From: Actinomycetospora succinea
Lineage (GTDB): Bacteria > Actinomycetota > Actinomycetes > Mycobacteriales > Pseudonocardiaceae
Direction: 5' to 3'
Length of the DNA stretch: 64,000 nucleotides
Assembly: GCF_004363095.1 (NCBI RefSeq)
Contig: NZ_SNYO01000003.1
Location: forward strand, 744,001-808,000
Positions 25,035 to 28,698 of the stretch are shown here, piece by piece. The stretch's first letter is position 1. Each line of letters begins with the position of its first letter. Under the pieces are notes generated by a model. The model worked only from the letters and a program-made list of their open reading frames with translations, was not told where the DNA came from and did no database searches. Position numbers and translations under genes: made by a program.

Positions 25035-25116
25035 CACTCCAGTTTACTAATCGACCTCACGCGACTTCCGGCCTGCTCAGGGTGTGCGCACGACGGGTCC
25101 GGGGCACGCCGGGGAC

Positions 25117-26055
25117 ATGCGCCGCATCACCCAGGACACGGCAGGCGGACCCGAGGTCCTGCACGTCACCGACGCCCCGGTCCCGGAGCCGATCCCGACC
25201 GAGATCCGGGTGCGCGTGACGGCCGCCGGCGTGAACCCGGTCGACACCAAGGTCCGCGCGGGCGGCGCCGGGCTCGGTGACGACATGACCGCGCCGCCCT
25301 TCACGGTCGGCTGGGACGTCGCCGGGGTGGTCGACGCCGTGGGCATGGGCGTGACGCGGTTCGCGGTCGGCGACCGGGTGTTCGGGATGCCGTGGTTCCC
25401 GCGCGAGGCCGGGGGCTACGGCGAGTACGTCACCGCGCCGTCCCGGCAGTTCGCGCACATCCCCGACGGCGTCGACGACGTCACCGCCGCGGCCACCCCG
25501 CTCGCCGCGCTGACCGCCTGGCAGATCGTCGTCGACACCGCCGACGTGCAGTGCGACCAGCGCGTCCTCGTGCACGCCGCGGGCGGGGGCGTCGGCCACC
25601 TCGCGGTGCAGATCGCGAAGACGCGCGGGGCATACGTCGTCGGGACGGCCTCGGCGTCCAAGCACGCCGAGCTCGCCGCGCTCGGTCTGGACGAGGCGAT
25701 CGACCACCACACGCAGGACGTGGCCCGGGCGACCCGGGACATCGACGTCGCGGTCGACCTCACCGAGGTCAACGGCCCCTCCTCGCTCGCCGTGACGCGC
25801 CCCGGCGGGCTGCTCGTCTGCGTGCCCTCCGGCGTGCCCGAGGGCCTCACCGAGCAGGCGCACGCCGAGGGCAAGCGGGTCACCGACTTCCTGGTCGAGC
25901 CCGACGGCATCGCCCTCACCGGCATCGCCCGGCTCCTCGCCGAGGGCGCGCTGAGCGTGCGCGTCGCCGGCACGTTCCCCCTCGAGGAGGCGGCGTCGGC
26001 CCACCGCGAACTGGAGAAGGGATCCACGTTCGGCAAGCTCGTGCTCACGCTCTGA
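25117..26055 (+). CDS. NADP-dependent quinone oxidoreductase, MDR superfamily
   Basis: A 312-residue medium-chain dehydrogenase/reductase without the catalytic zinc ligands. Visible features are the N-terminal GroES-like fold (GVNPVDTKVRAGG, then GWDVAGVVDAVG), the nucleotide-binding glycine motif AAGGGVGHLAVQIAK, and a C-terminal LEEAASAHRELEKGSTFGKLVL that is standard for quinone reductase/QOR-like proteins. It probably reduces quinones or enones with NADPH. The start at ATG 25117 was chosen over GTG 25084 because the family begins at MRRITQD. It is divergent from valS. Confidence 0.9.
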   Translation: MRRITQDTAGGPEVLHVTDAPVPEPIPTEIRVRVTAAGVNPVDTKVRAGGAGLGDDMTAPPFTVGWDVAGVVDAVGMGVTRFAVGDRVFGMPWFPREAGGYGEYVTAPSRQFAHIPDGVDDVTAAATPLAALTAWQIVVDTADVQCDQRVLVHAAGGGVGHLAVQIAKTRGAYVVGTASASKHAELAALGLDEAIDHHTQDVARATRDIDVAVDLTEVNGPSSLAVTRPGGLLVCVPSGVPEGLTEQAHAEGKRVTDFLVEPDGIALTGIARLLAEGALSVRVAGTFPLEEAASAHRELEKGSTFGKLVLTL

Positions 26056-26094
26056 GATCTGTCGAAGAATCGTCCCGCGAATTCTGCGGAAATC

Positions 26095-26125
26095 GTGGAC
26101 AGCGCCACCTCGCGCGCTCTAATGT
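26095..26125 (+). promoter_or_regulatory. Promoter of the 24-residue ORF
   Basis: GTGGAC (26095-26100) and TAATGT (26120-26125) are separated by 19 bp. The region is visibly richer in A and T than its surroundings. The 3' end of the -10 overlaps an inverted repeat. Confidence 0.45.
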
Positions 26126-26150
26126 CCTCCTCGTACACGGAGAGGAGGAC
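26124..26150 (+). promoter_or_regulatory. Inverted repeat covering the ribosome binding site of the 24-residue ORF
   Basis: GTCCTCCTC (26124-26132) pairs perfectly with GAGGAGGAC (26142-26150) across a 9-base loop. The right arm is the Shine-Dalgarno sequence. If both arms are transcribed the site would be hidden; if the -10 at 26120 is used, the repeat would instead act as a DNA operator at the start site. Confidence 0.5.
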
Positions 26151-26153
26151 CTG

Positions 26154-26228
26154 ATGATGTTGACGACGACCGACGGATATCGCTTCGCGACCGTCATCGA
26201 GGTCCGACCCGTGTCCGCGGTCTGCTGA
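26154..26228 (+). CDS. 24-residue small ORF with strong ribosome binding site
   Basis: ATG 26154 is preceded by a full GAGGAGG Shine-Dalgarno and a promoter. The peptide begins MMLTTTDGYR, continues through FATVIEVRPV and ends in AVC before TGA. It is too short to classify. There is no run of identical regulatory codons, so a classical attenuation leader is not supported. It could be a small bioactive or regulatory protein or a translated leader for the downstream gene. The tail ending in Cys is notable. Confidence 0.4.
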   Translation: MMLTTTDGYRFATVIEVRPVSAVC

Positions 26229-26257
26229 GGCCTCGCCCGCTCCGCGCACGCTTCTGA

Positions 26258-26275
26258 ACGTCCGTCTCCGGACGT
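26258..26275 (+). terminator. Hairpin after the 24-residue ORF
   Basis: ACGTCCG (26258-26264) pairs with CGGACGT (26269-26275) over the tetraloop TCTC, 30 bases after the small ORF stop. This is a possible intrinsic terminator or attenuator, without a clear T tract. The rest of 26229-26401 shows no gene. Confidence 0.4.
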
Positions 26276-26401
26276 CCCTGCTGCTCATGGTCCCCGCTCC
26301 GCGGTCGGACGCGCATGTCTGCGCCATTCTCCCGGCAATTCTCTGCCGTCGTCGACGCCATTCTTCGCGCGTCGATCCTCTGCGCTCGAAAGGGGGCGAC
26401 C

Positions 26402-26875
26402 ATGAGTTGGATCTTCCGCACCGTGTCCATTCCTCTGATGCCGTCCTTCCGCGGTGGCGCCGCAGCGCGACGCCAGGAGGCGATCGCCCGGGCGTTCGAG
26501 TCCGAGGTGCGTCGCGAGTTCCGGGCCGCGGCCGAGTTCACGGGCGTGCGCACGAAGACCCACGTGGCGGCCGGCGTCACGATCACGACCCCGCGCATCG
26601 GCGGGGTGGTGATGGGTCCGCCGGTGACCTTCACCGTCGAGCTGATGCCGGGCATGGTCCCGTCGGACCTGCTCGCGCCGGCCCGTCGGGTGGCGGAGGC
26701 CGTGGGTGGCCGTGGCGTGCGGATCGAGCCCATCGCCGGGCGCTGGCTGCGCGTGGTGGTGCTGGAGGAGCCGGAGCCGGAGCCGGCTCCTCCGGCCCCG
26801 CGGCGCCTCCGGAGCCGGCCGCTCGTGACGCCGTGCACGGCCGAGACGGCGGAGGGCCCTCACTCGTTCCGGTGA
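26402..26875 (+). CDS. Hypothetical protein resembling an FtsK/Tra N-terminal segment
   Basis: A 157-residue protein starting at ATG 26402 with GAAAGGGGG upstream. After a short amphipathic start it has a helical stretch rich in Arg and Ala, then an alpha/beta unit (PPVTFTVELMPGMVPSDLL, then ARRVAEAVGGRGVRIEPI, then RWLRVVVLEEPEPEP). That beta-helix-beta unit resembles the domain preceding the ATPase in FtsK-like transfer proteins of actinobacterial integrative elements, but no ATPase follows. It could be a stand-alone domain or a remnant. The tail is proline-rich and low complexity. The function is unknown. Confidence 0.55.
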   Translation: MSWIFRTVSIPLMPSFRGGAAARRQEAIARAFESEVRREFRAAAEFTGVRTKTHVAAGVTITTPRIGGVVMGPPVTFTVELMPGMVPSDLLAPARRVAEAVGGRGVRIEPIAGRWLRVVVLEEPEPEPAPPAPRRLRSRPLVTPCTAETAEGPHSFR

Positions 26876-26894
26876 CGGGTGCTAACGGCCGGGG

Positions 26895-26956
26895 TCCCCC
26901 GACGACATGTGCGGCAAGACCGCCGAACGGCGGTCACCACACATCTCGTCGGGGGA
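26895..26956 (+). promoter_or_regulatory. Long 5'-leader hairpin that buries the ribosome binding site
   Basis: The outer arms, 26895-26911 and 26940-26956, pair over 17 bp with one mismatch. An inner perfect stem, GACCGCCG (26918-26925) with CGGCGGTC (26928-26935), sits inside. The right outer arm ends in GGGGGA, the only Shine-Dalgarno-like sequence, eight bases before ATG 26965. The RNA would fold with the ribosome site closed, or the DNA is a large operator. Confidence 0.65.
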
Positions 26957-26964
26957 TACCAGCC

Positions 26965-27915
26965 ATGACCGTCGTCCAGCCGCCCCGCCACCGCGCTCCC
27001 TCCGGAGCGCAGGGCTTCGGCCACGAGCCGCACCCGTCGGGACCGATCACGGTCACTCCGCGCCCGTCCCGCCGTGCCGCCGAGGCGTCGGTCGTCGACG
27101 CCCCGACCACGCCCATCCCGCGGGCCGCGCTCGACGCCGCCCGGATGCGGCCGGCGACGATGGCGCCGCAGGCCCCGATGGTCCCGGCGGGCCCGATGGT
27201 CCCGATGCCGGCCCCGCGCAACGGCCTCGGCATCACCGGCCTGGTGCTCGGCCTCTGCGGCCTGGTCGTCGGGATGATCCCGCTGCTCGGCTTCGGAGCG
27301 ATCCTGCTGGGCCTGGTCGGGCTCGTGCTCGGCCTCGTCGGCGTCACCCGGGCCCGCAAGCGCGTCGCCACCAACATCAGGACCGCCGTCGCCGGCGTCA
27401 TCGCGTGCGTGCTCGCGATCGCGCTCGGGATCACCGGCCTGGTGATCGTCGCGAACGCCGTGACCCAGCTGAACGAGGACCTGTCCTCGATCGGCGCCGG
27501 CACCCCGCCCGCCTCCGCGCCGGCCCCGGCGACCTCCGCCGTCGCCTTCGGTCAGACCTTCACCTACGCCGACGGCCTCGCCGTCACGGTGAGCGAGCCG
27601 ACCTCCTACGACCCCTCGAGCTACGCCGCCGGGAACACCAACCCCTACGCGTACAGCGTCACCATCCGCGTCACGAACAACACCGGCGCCGCGTTCGACC
27701 CGGTGCTGCTCCACGCCGCGATGTCGACGGGCGGCGCGCCGGCCTCCCAGATCTTCGACGCCGAGACGGGCACGCCCCCCCAGAACCAGCTCCAGCCCGG
27801 CCGCAGCCTGACCTATGAGCTGGCGTTCTCCACGGCCGCGAACACCGGCGAGGCCCAGGTCGACGTCACCCCGTCGTTCAGCCACGACCCGGCCGTCTTC
27901 ACCGGCAACCTGTAG
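26965..27915 (+). CDS. Membrane protein with DUF4190-like spans and DUF4352-like domain
   Basis: The product is 316 residues. The proline-rich, basic cytoplasmic N-terminus (about 90 residues) is followed by two spans in a DUF4190-like arrangement (LGITGLVLGLCGLVVGMIP, then GLVLGLVGVTRARKR), a third span near residues 140-160 and an extracytoplasmic immunoglobulin-like domain (about 195-316) of the DUF4352 type with TFTYADGLAVTVSEP and TIRVTNNTGAAFDPVLL. It is probably a surface-exposed, membrane-anchored lipoprotein-like sensor or adhesin. The role is unknown. Translation is likely controlled by the leader hairpin. Confidence 0.7.
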   Translation: MTVVQPPRHRAPSGAQGFGHEPHPSGPITVTPRPSRRAAEASVVDAPTTPIPRAALDAARMRPATMAPQAPMVPAGPMVPMPAPRNGLGITGLVLGLCGLVVGMIPLLGFGAILLGLVGLVLGLVGVTRARKRVATNIRTAVAGVIACVLAIALGITGLVIVANAVTQLNEDLSSIGAGTPPASAPAPATSAVAFGQTFTYADGLAVTVSEPTSYDPSSYAAGNTNPYAYSVTIRVTNNTGAAFDPVLLHAAMSTGGAPASQIFDAETGTPPQNQLQPGRSLTYELAFSTAANTGEAQVDVTPSFSHDPAVFTGNL

Positions 27916-28698
27916 CTAGACACCGCCGTGCTCGCGCCACAGCGTGAGCAGGTCCGGAGCCCCGAGGACGTCGACACCGGCGACCTCGGGGCTCTCGCGG
28001 TTCGTCAGCACGGTGAGCAGGGCCCGGGCGGGACCGCGCACGGCGGTGTCGCTCTTGCGGTGCGCGCGCTCGATCGTCGGGCCGTCCGCGCCGAGCGTCA
28101 CGACCCACTCGCCCGCGTCGCCGAGCCCCTCGTCGGTGGCGTGCAGGTGCAGCGTCGCGCCGTCGGCGCGCAGCCCCTCGCGCCGCGACGCCCCCATGGC
28201 GACCATCGCGAGGTGCTCGTCGACGGCGTCCGCCGCGATCACCGGGTCGACGTCGGCGAGCAGCGGACGGCCCGCCGCGCGCTCGGCGTCGGCGCGGTGC
28301 ACCAGCGTCTCGTGACACTGCCGCCGCGCCCAGAACGACACCGGCACCATGGTCCCGAAGCCGCCGACCAGCGTGTCCTCGCCGGCGTCGCGGATCGCCT
28401 GGGTCAGCGCGGCGGCGCCCTCGAGGAGCCAGAGCGAGACCTCGGCCTCGTCGTCGGGCATCGGCGGGGCCGTGGCCCCGCGTCGCTTCAGCTTCGTCCC
28501 CGGGTTGCCGACGGTCACCGTGCACCAGCGGTGCACGCCGCCGAGGTGGTCGGCGAGGTCGCGCACCGTCCAGTCCGGGCAGGACGGCACGGGCGTGGCG
28601 TGCCCGGCGGCACGCACGGCGTCCGAGAACGCCTTGGTGTGCCGGGTGATCTCGTCGAGGTACTGGGGCACCGGGGGCATGCGGGCATTCTCGGTCAT
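27916..28698 (-). CDS. Maleylpyruvate isomerase family mycothiol-dependent enzyme
   Basis: A 260-residue protein of the DinB/MDMPI fold. The N-terminal metal- and thiol-binding helices (VPSCPDWTVRDLADHLGGVHRW) and the second conserved patch (RRQCHETLVHRADAE) are clear, and the C-terminal half is an SCP2-like beta domain. Family members use mycothiol as a cofactor. The start ATG overlaps the nirD stop (ATGA), making this the last gene of the nitrate assimilation operon. It abuts the stop of the convergent DUF4352 gene. Its substrate is unknown; operon context suggests a thiol-dependent detoxification step linked to nitrite or nitric oxide. Confidence 0.85.
   Translation of the reverse strand: MTENARMPPVPQYLDEITRHTKAFSDAVRAAGHATPVPSCPDWTVRDLADHLGGVHRWCTVTVGNPGTKLKRRGATAPPMPDDEAEVSLWLLEGAAALTQAIRDAGEDTLVGGFGTMVPVSFWARRQCHETLVHRADAERAAGRPLLADVDPVIAADAVDEHLAMVAMGASRREGLRADGATLHLHATDEGLGDAGEWVVTLGADGPTIERAHRKSDTAVRGPARALLTVLTNRESPEVAGVDVLGAPDLLTLWREHGGV

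Follow-up and report, generated by a model that had tools for sequence, protein, structure and literature searches.

The locus described here occupies positions 26095 to 27915 of a 64,000-nucleotide stretch (the window) of contig NZ_SNYO01000003.1 from Actinomycetospora succinea, a strain with a genome of 6.47 Mb (G000). It consists of two separate things, a conserved hairpin that contains the Shine-Dalgarno (SD) sequence of a membrane protein gene and a cassette composed of a small open reading frame (ORF) and a second one, ORF2. All of these features lie on the plus strand, behind a zinc-type alcohol dehydrogenase-like gene (25084 to 26055) that is a possible source of read-through transcripts. 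The first part of the cassette (26096 to 26228) is formed by a sigma-70-like promoter (26096 to 26125), an SD sequence and a 24-residue ORF (26154 to 26228), and lies outside the hairpin unit; the second part is ORF2 (26402 to 26875), an orphan of 157 residues. The conserved element CACTCGTTCCGGTGA (26861 to 26875), which overlaps the last ORF2 codons in this genome, is followed by the hexamer CTAACG (26882 to 26887), by the 60-nucleotide hairpin (26896 to 26955) and by the gene of a 316-residue membrane protein (26965 to 27915).

The predicted fold of the hairpin has 17 outer pairs arranged as 10 + 5 + 2 (26896-26905 with 26946-26955, 26907-26911 with 26940-26944, and 26913-26914 with 26937-26938) around an inner stem of 7 bp (26918-26924 with 26929-26935). 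The SD sequence GGGGGA of the membrane protein gene (26951 to 26956) ends 8 nucleotides before the ATG at 26965, and its five G residues are paired within the right arm. The prediction thus bears out the initial annotation, in which a 17-bp stem with an inner stem was said to bury this ribosome-binding site. The 111 nucleotides around the hairpin fold with −61 kcal/mol (z = −5.79), a stability reached by none of 200 shuffles, and the hairpin itself has a minimum free energy (MFE) of −44.9 for 60 nucleotides. This value is not unique, since 7 of 12,788 sampled 60-nucleotide segments (overlapping, from both strands) are more stable, including one at 26751 inside ORF2.

The membrane protein gene and the hairpin are found behind the dehydrogenase gene in ten Actinomycetospora genomes (G000, G002, G004, G005, G006, G008, G009, G011, G012, and G017). 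The ten copies are each 60 nucleotides long, contain no insertions or deletions and have a mean column identity of 92%. GGGGGA is invariant and stands 8, 9 or 10 nucleotides from the ATG, and the SD is paired in the predicted fold of the long transcript in all ten leaders. The inner stem also folds in every copy despite changes, in some through shifted bulges, with 94.3% of its cells paired. Across the ten-copy alignment, 91.3% of the cells are paired (a value reached by 5 of 500 shuffles) and the covariation score is 0.056 (11 of 500), with 8 further pair types (46 of 500) and 2 pairs showing two-sided change (88 of 500). The outer pairs are mostly invariant and therefore carry no covariation; the covariation support for the hairpin is weak because the ten copies vary little.

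A covariance model (R1) was searched with strict filters in 390 genomes of the family, 70 of which gave a match at an E value of ≤0.1. One strong match (E ≤ 4.6e-16) occurs in each of the ten genomes, all of them Actinomycetospora, and eight further searched genomes of the genus have no strong match. Spread of the hairpin through the family was rejected after 20 weaker loci were read (among them L135, which was not properly readable): six are hisC-like coding sequence, and none is recognisable as a leader of this protein family. An exact-pattern scan of an 84,980-species collection, which overlooks relatives whose pattern has changed, such as G004, returned 48 stretches, and the eight confirmed by R1 are all from Actinomycetospora. 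Among named genomes, the leader is present in A. chibensis, A. lemnae, A. callitridis, A. cinnamomea, A. straminea, A. lutea and Actinomycetospora sp. NBRC 106375, and in one metagenome-assembled genome. The window contains no Rfam match at the gathering cut-off; between 26050 and 27000 there are sub-threshold matches only, the best being MIR9672 on the minus strand (33.9 bits versus 74). Judged from these comparisons, the hairpin is conserved, restricted to the genus and, by prediction, sequesters the SD. Translational control of the membrane protein, as originally proposed, is likely given the conserved hairpin and the paired SD, but the part assigned to the small ORF did not hold up.

The left arm of the hairpin contains a putative promoter element. 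CTAACG, the proposed −35 hexamer of a sigma-D/ShbA-like promoter (class motif GTAACG), is separated by 15 nucleotides from the proposed −10 element CGAC (26903 to 26906), which lies in hairpin columns 8 to 11. CTAACG-N15-CGAC is present in nine of the ten leaders, eight of which were retrieved by pattern search; the tenth, G011, has CTCACG and a truncated membrane protein gene. The −10 element and its spacing agree with the pattern (C)GAT/C at 15 to 17 nucleotides, and the −35 hexamer fits GTAAC(A/G) at five of six bases, one short of a full match. Transcription is predicted to start at about 26912 to 26917, roughly 7 nucleotides after CGAC and immediately past the outer left arm. Some 0.02 matches with up to one mismatch are expected in 110 nucleotides, a count that includes the leaders of this locus, and the quality of the leader's promoter match is best described as moderate. 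A paralog of the membrane protein has the exact motif just upstream, and the same form with an initial C precedes a homolog in another genus (L016). Of 33 loci of the protein family, 12 have (G/C)TAACG-N15..17-CGAY upstream, eight of these being the present leaders; off-spacing matches number one and opposite-strand matches none. Conservation is 93% in hairpin columns 2 to 4, the part of the promoter spacer that pairs with the SD, and averages 64% in the eight columns before them, hairpin column 1 (50%) included. Further upstream, CACTCGTTCCGGTGA has a mean column identity of 97% over the ten genomes, also where ORF2 has been lost, and is perhaps a regulator site.

The motif is strongly enriched in this genus. 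GTAACGG followed by CGAC or CGAT was first noticed upstream of relatives of the membrane protein, and GTAACG-N15..17-CGAY has 37 matches in the source genome versus 2 for the reversed pattern (2 versus 4 at the off-spacing N21-23). In six congeners the motif matches sum to 221, against 34 for the control. From the 37 matches, 30 became loci for reading, and 18 of these have an ORF start within 350 nucleotides downstream by a crude coding test. These sites form a candidate regulon. The class agrees with the sigma-D consensus of Corynebacterium glutamicum, GTAAC(A/G) and GAT (PMC6338062). The genome also encodes a ShbA-family sigma factor (NF007230, 292.5 bits with a cut-off of 209) in a gene that adjoins one for RsdA, so that both genes expected of a SigD/ShbA system are present. 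RsdA is found in all 18 Actinomycetospora genomes searched and in 22 of 31 overall. At the 5' end of the sigma gene lies GTAACA-N16-CGAT, and in G003 GTAACG-N16-CGAT stands about 0.6 kb before the RsdA match. The genus motif and the ShbA-type sigma and RsdA genes thus recall the C. glutamicum sigma-D regulon, whereas the leader has CTAACG with CGAC at spacing 15 and is not filed as a member. Several of the motif sites (e.g., L196, L201, L215, L217, and L219) precede ORFs whose products look membrane bound or secreted by eye. One match, C18, whose sequence recurs among the matches of G002, G003 and G009, may be situated in a ribosomal RNA operon.

The conservation of the hairpin, its restriction to one locus, the predicted pairing of the SD, the enrichment of the motif and the presence of ShbA-type sigma and RsdA genes form the basis for the following proposal. 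RNA polymerase with a SigD/ShbA-type sigma factor would start within the hairpin, at about 26912 to 26917, from CTAACG and CGAC. The resulting short mRNA would have a leader of about 51 nucleotides, without the outer left arm and with the inner stem at its 5' end, and its GGGGGA would be free for translation. A read-through mRNA from the dehydrogenase gene or ORF2 would instead carry both arms, form the long hairpin and stay untranslated. The membrane protein would then be made only when its own promoter fires. We infer that the leader uses this promoter and this sigma factor and starts at this site, that read-through takes place and that the read-through mRNA is silenced. Tentatively, and as a possibility still short of probable, a role as translational insulator, with a promoter nested in the 5' arm of the hairpin, is favoured over the alternatives weighed below.

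The arrangement resembles that of bacteriophage T4, where RNA structure in long transcripts hides the ribosome-binding site of gene e, soc, 49 and I-TevI (PMC3014915, PMC2988022). In gene e and I-TevI, the 5' strand of the structure harbours a late promoter; the late mRNA therefore lacks this strand and is translated, and the long early mRNA is silent (PMC3014915, PMC2988022). As in gene e, the SD is located in a stable hairpin of the long transcript, here by prediction in ten of ten leaders. The setting differs, being the chromosome of a GC-rich actinobacterium with a proposed SigD/ShbA-like promoter in place of a phage late promoter, and the case made here is a sequence prediction. The stricter claim of a chromosomal version of the T4 lysozyme trick, with a SigD/ShbA-type promoter in the anti-SD arm and a membrane protein that is never translated from read-through, is made more hesitantly.

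Loss of the left arm is predicted to ease access to the SD. When it is dropped, the cost of freeing the SD falls by 1.9 to 11.6 kcal/mol in the ten leaders, and the predicted cost in the short form is still 4.9 to 10.0 kcal/mol. As controls, ten of the 30 motif loci were chosen for a suitable start-codon distance; one (L201) was too close, and the nine computed change by −4.4 to +3.6 kcal/mol, a range whose highest value is exceeded by eight leaders. Where the complete cassette is missing (seven genomes), the distance between the dehydrogenase stop and the conserved leader is 11 to 62 nucleotides, counting the stop codon, and a scan of window positions 26000 to 28000, made in this genome only, detected no terminator-like site. 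Because of this short gap and the lack of a terminator-like site, read-through from the dehydrogenase gene is plausible.

Several points weigh against a promoter nested in an insulating hairpin. The −35 hexamer begins with C in place of G, enrichment of GCTAACG-N15..17-CGAY is not clear (7 versus 4, with this leader among the 7), and a spacing of 15 is the rarest, seen at 4 of the 30 motif sites. Two leaders do not stand out in SD exposure: G004 (3.6 kcal/mol) equals the highest control, and G008 (1.9 kcal/mol) falls within the controls. The check for covariation proposed in the initial annotation supports the hairpin, weakly, but its outermost pairs break without compensation and most of the others never vary; column 1 has a conservation of just 50%, and G004 breaks two pairs. 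As for the motif class, 11 of the 30 sites lie inside a coding-like ORF (a set that overlaps with the 18 above) and hence not all are promoters. The motif at the sigma gene comes from a looser pattern and overlaps the assumed start codon. Streptomyces coelicolor ShbA had only two targets in vitro, and no motif could be derived (PMC9205884), so that a large ShbA regulon cannot be taken for granted.

If the proposal is true, a cellular gene reads the origin of its mRNA, and the same coding sequence is translated or silent depending on the promoter used. One 60-nucleotide element would combine a promoter, a sensor of transcript origin and a ribosome-binding site, giving compact insulation to a membrane protein gene packed behind an unrelated gene without a terminator, in a form that can be searched for in other GC-rich genomes. 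The analysis also provides a testable SigD/ShbA-like motif class for Actinomycetospora. Literature searches on DUF4190 and DUF4352, on Actinomycetospora promoters and riboswitches and on translation control by transcript origin yielded nothing on this leader, which is no proof of absence.

The main rival explanation, which takes up the thermometer or protein-binding leader of the initial annotation, is that transcription starts upstream of 26896 and that every mRNA carries the whole hairpin, which is opened by heat, a protein or a ligand. This is a doubtful but still credible possibility. The SD is paired by prediction in all ten leaders within a region of exceptional stability (the z score of −5.79 given above), and invariant unpaired bases inside the stem, namely the C.C mismatch at columns 11 and 50 and an asymmetric internal loop around GCGGCA/CAC, are candidate contacts. 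CACTCGTTCCGGTGA could, moreover, belong to a promoter further upstream. Yet no canonical promoter is found there; the nearest approach, TTCACT-N18-TAACGG, lacks the final T of a −10 hexamer, and TTCACT itself varies (CCCACT in G009 and G012, CTCACT in G000). Like RNA thermometers and SD-sequestering riboswitches, the hairpin places the SD within a stem beside the start codon, but it is predicted to be very stable and was seen at one gene in one genus. The modeled cost of freeing the SD, 8.5 to 20.2 kcal/mol at 37°C, is high for a thermometer and makes one unlikely. Riboswitch classes usually recur, unlike this hairpin with its single strong match per genome at a single gene and no Rfam family at the cut-off. 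The initial annotation named a start of transcription within the right arms as a refuting outcome; the sigma-D-like match would place the start near 26912 to 26917 and would in the same way take the 17-bp stem out of the gene's own mRNA.

The conserved sequence might also act as DNA, with CCCCGACGACAT...ATCTCGTCGGGG serving as a widely spaced regulator dyad at the promoter, or with the hairpin terminating the upstream gene, and the SD pairing being incidental. The outer arms either do not vary or carry uncompensated changes, as protein sites would, and the covariance model scores on the opposite strand too, as a near-palindrome would. The fixed length of 60 nucleotides, the nested inner stem that folds in ten of ten copies, the absence of a terminator-like site in the scan and the constant placement of GGGGGA 8 to 10 nucleotides from the ATG in all ten argue otherwise and render a DNA-level element unlikely. 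Three more specific candidates were rejected. Coding of the leader does not fit the substitutions, which show no period of three (by eye, A1/A3), and the frame is not kept as GGGGGA and ATG are separated by 8, 9 or 10 nucleotides. An MtrA/GlnR box would consist of GTnAC direct repeats with a period of 11 (PMC13189361, PMC6265350, PMC10704036); GTGAC...CTAAC has a period of 10 in G000, the first repeat reads GTGAG in G005, G009 and G012, and the match is shorter in G017, so that neither spacing nor bases fit. For CIRCE/HrcA, the spacing does not fit.

The small ORF proved to be a separate matter. The initial annotation described a promoter and an SD sequence ahead of a 24-residue ORF in a less GC-rich region, and these features are present: TGGACA-N18-TAATGT at 26096 to 26125, GGAGG at 26144 to 26148 and the 24-codon ORF at 26154 to 26228 were read by eye (a consensus promoter scanner reported no promoter between 26000 and 28000), and the G+C content of 26060 to 26400 is 64.5% compared with 74.4% for the window. 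The perfect 9-bp inverted repeat is likewise there (26124-26132 and 26142-26150), but an RNA structure in which it buries the small-ORF SD is not confirmed. The left arm of the repeat shares bases with the −10 hexamer TAATGT (26120 to 26125), and with a start about 7 nucleotides downstream this arm would lie outside the mRNA; the two ORF-carrying relatives lack the repeat, and burial of the SD by it was rejected. For the 206-nucleotide small-ORF region, the predicted stability is within chance (z = −1.33), being equalled by 19 of 200 shuffles. The tetraloop hairpin ACGTCCG-TCTC-CGGACGT exists at 26258 to 26275, but its sequence is not kept in the three genomes that carry the ORF, and their individual folds differ.

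A regulatory leader peptide acting on ORF2 or the membrane protein is very improbable. The promoter and SD of the small ORF are conserved in all three carriers, and the three peptides, 24 to 25 residues long, all end in Cys-stop; the residues in common are this final cysteine plus a few others. The small ORF may thus be translated. The ratio of nonsynonymous to synonymous substitution rates (dN/dS) of 0.71 to 0.98 (three sequences, low power) gives no sign of purifying selection on the peptide among these sequences, the complete cassette is missing from seven of the ten hairpin genomes, and 667 nucleotides separate the small-ORF stop from the hairpin. The proposed role of the 24-residue ORF as a regulator of the membrane protein is not supported on these grounds, its own stem being unconserved and probably untranscribed, and the view of the small ORF and the large hairpin as one unit is not confirmed, since they are inherited separately. 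The two are probably unrelated, and the small gene looks like a decaying relic.

ORF2 shares the history of the small ORF, as the complete cassette is inserted between the dehydrogenase gene and the hairpin in only three of the ten genomes (G000, G004, and G005). Its product is related to the N-terminal part of FtsK/TraB-like transfer ATPases and has no ATPase domain, full-length relatives exist within Actinomycetospora, and dN/dS is 0.33 to 0.46. When the dehydrogenase genes are placed in a tree, every one of the three carriers pairs with a genome lacking the cassette, and these groupings have starred support (at least 3 changes). The last ORF2 codons are kept directly behind the dehydrogenase gene in G012 (none of 200 shuffles as good in comparison with G000). 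A similar scar is weak in G008 (2 of 200 shuffles as good, compared with G004), ambiguous in G011 (2 of 200, compared with G000, at an unexpected position) and was not shown for G009 by the shuffle comparison, which left out G006, G002 and G017 with their too short intervals. The grouping of carriers with non-carriers and the remnant in G012 suggest that the cassette is probably old and was lost several times. Relatives of ORF2 are nearly confined to the genus (found in 19 of 80 genomes, of which 17 are Actinomycetospora), with several FtsK/TraB-like copies per genome, e.g., G000:C6 (L084) and G005:C25 (L083). The end of ORF2 itself contains a hairpin with GGAGCCGGAGCCGG repeats (26751 to 26810) that is stronger than the SD hairpin, with an MFE of −47.8 per 60 nucleotides, and that probably reflects codon-repeat composition.

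The 316-residue membrane protein has a proline-rich N terminus, three predicted membrane-region helices and a C-terminal beta-sandwich. Its match to DUF4190 (Pfam PF13828) is weak, at 17.3 bits against a cut-off of 35, and DUF4352 gives no hit at an E value of ≤1. The structure model presents the three helices and the beta-sandwich with a mean predicted local distance difference test (pLDDT) score of 54.5. Its best structural match is the lipoprotein YcdA (4r4g; E value of 1.5e-3), with low template modeling (TM) scores and no match at an E value of ≤0.001. Claudin-15, the lone hit in a sequence search of solved structures (E value of 0.0015), aligns on the membrane helices and was taken as chance. 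YcdA is a DUF4352 protein, and the label "DUF4352-like" given in the initial annotation is plausible by fold but finds no counterpart in the sequence search. The protein shares helices and a beta-sandwich with DUF4190/DUF4352 (YcdA) proteins and differs in falling below the DUF4190 cut-off and in having no DUF4352 hit. In G011 (L102) the gene lacks most of the first 180 codons, and in G012 (L101) it matches in two pieces; the hairpin is intact in both. Downstream of the membrane protein gene lies a convergent mycothiol-maleylpyruvate-isomerase-like gene, and beyond the locus the minus strand carries, between 29000 and 34028, nitrite/nitrate assimilation-like genes with large reductase ORFs, judged from their translations only.

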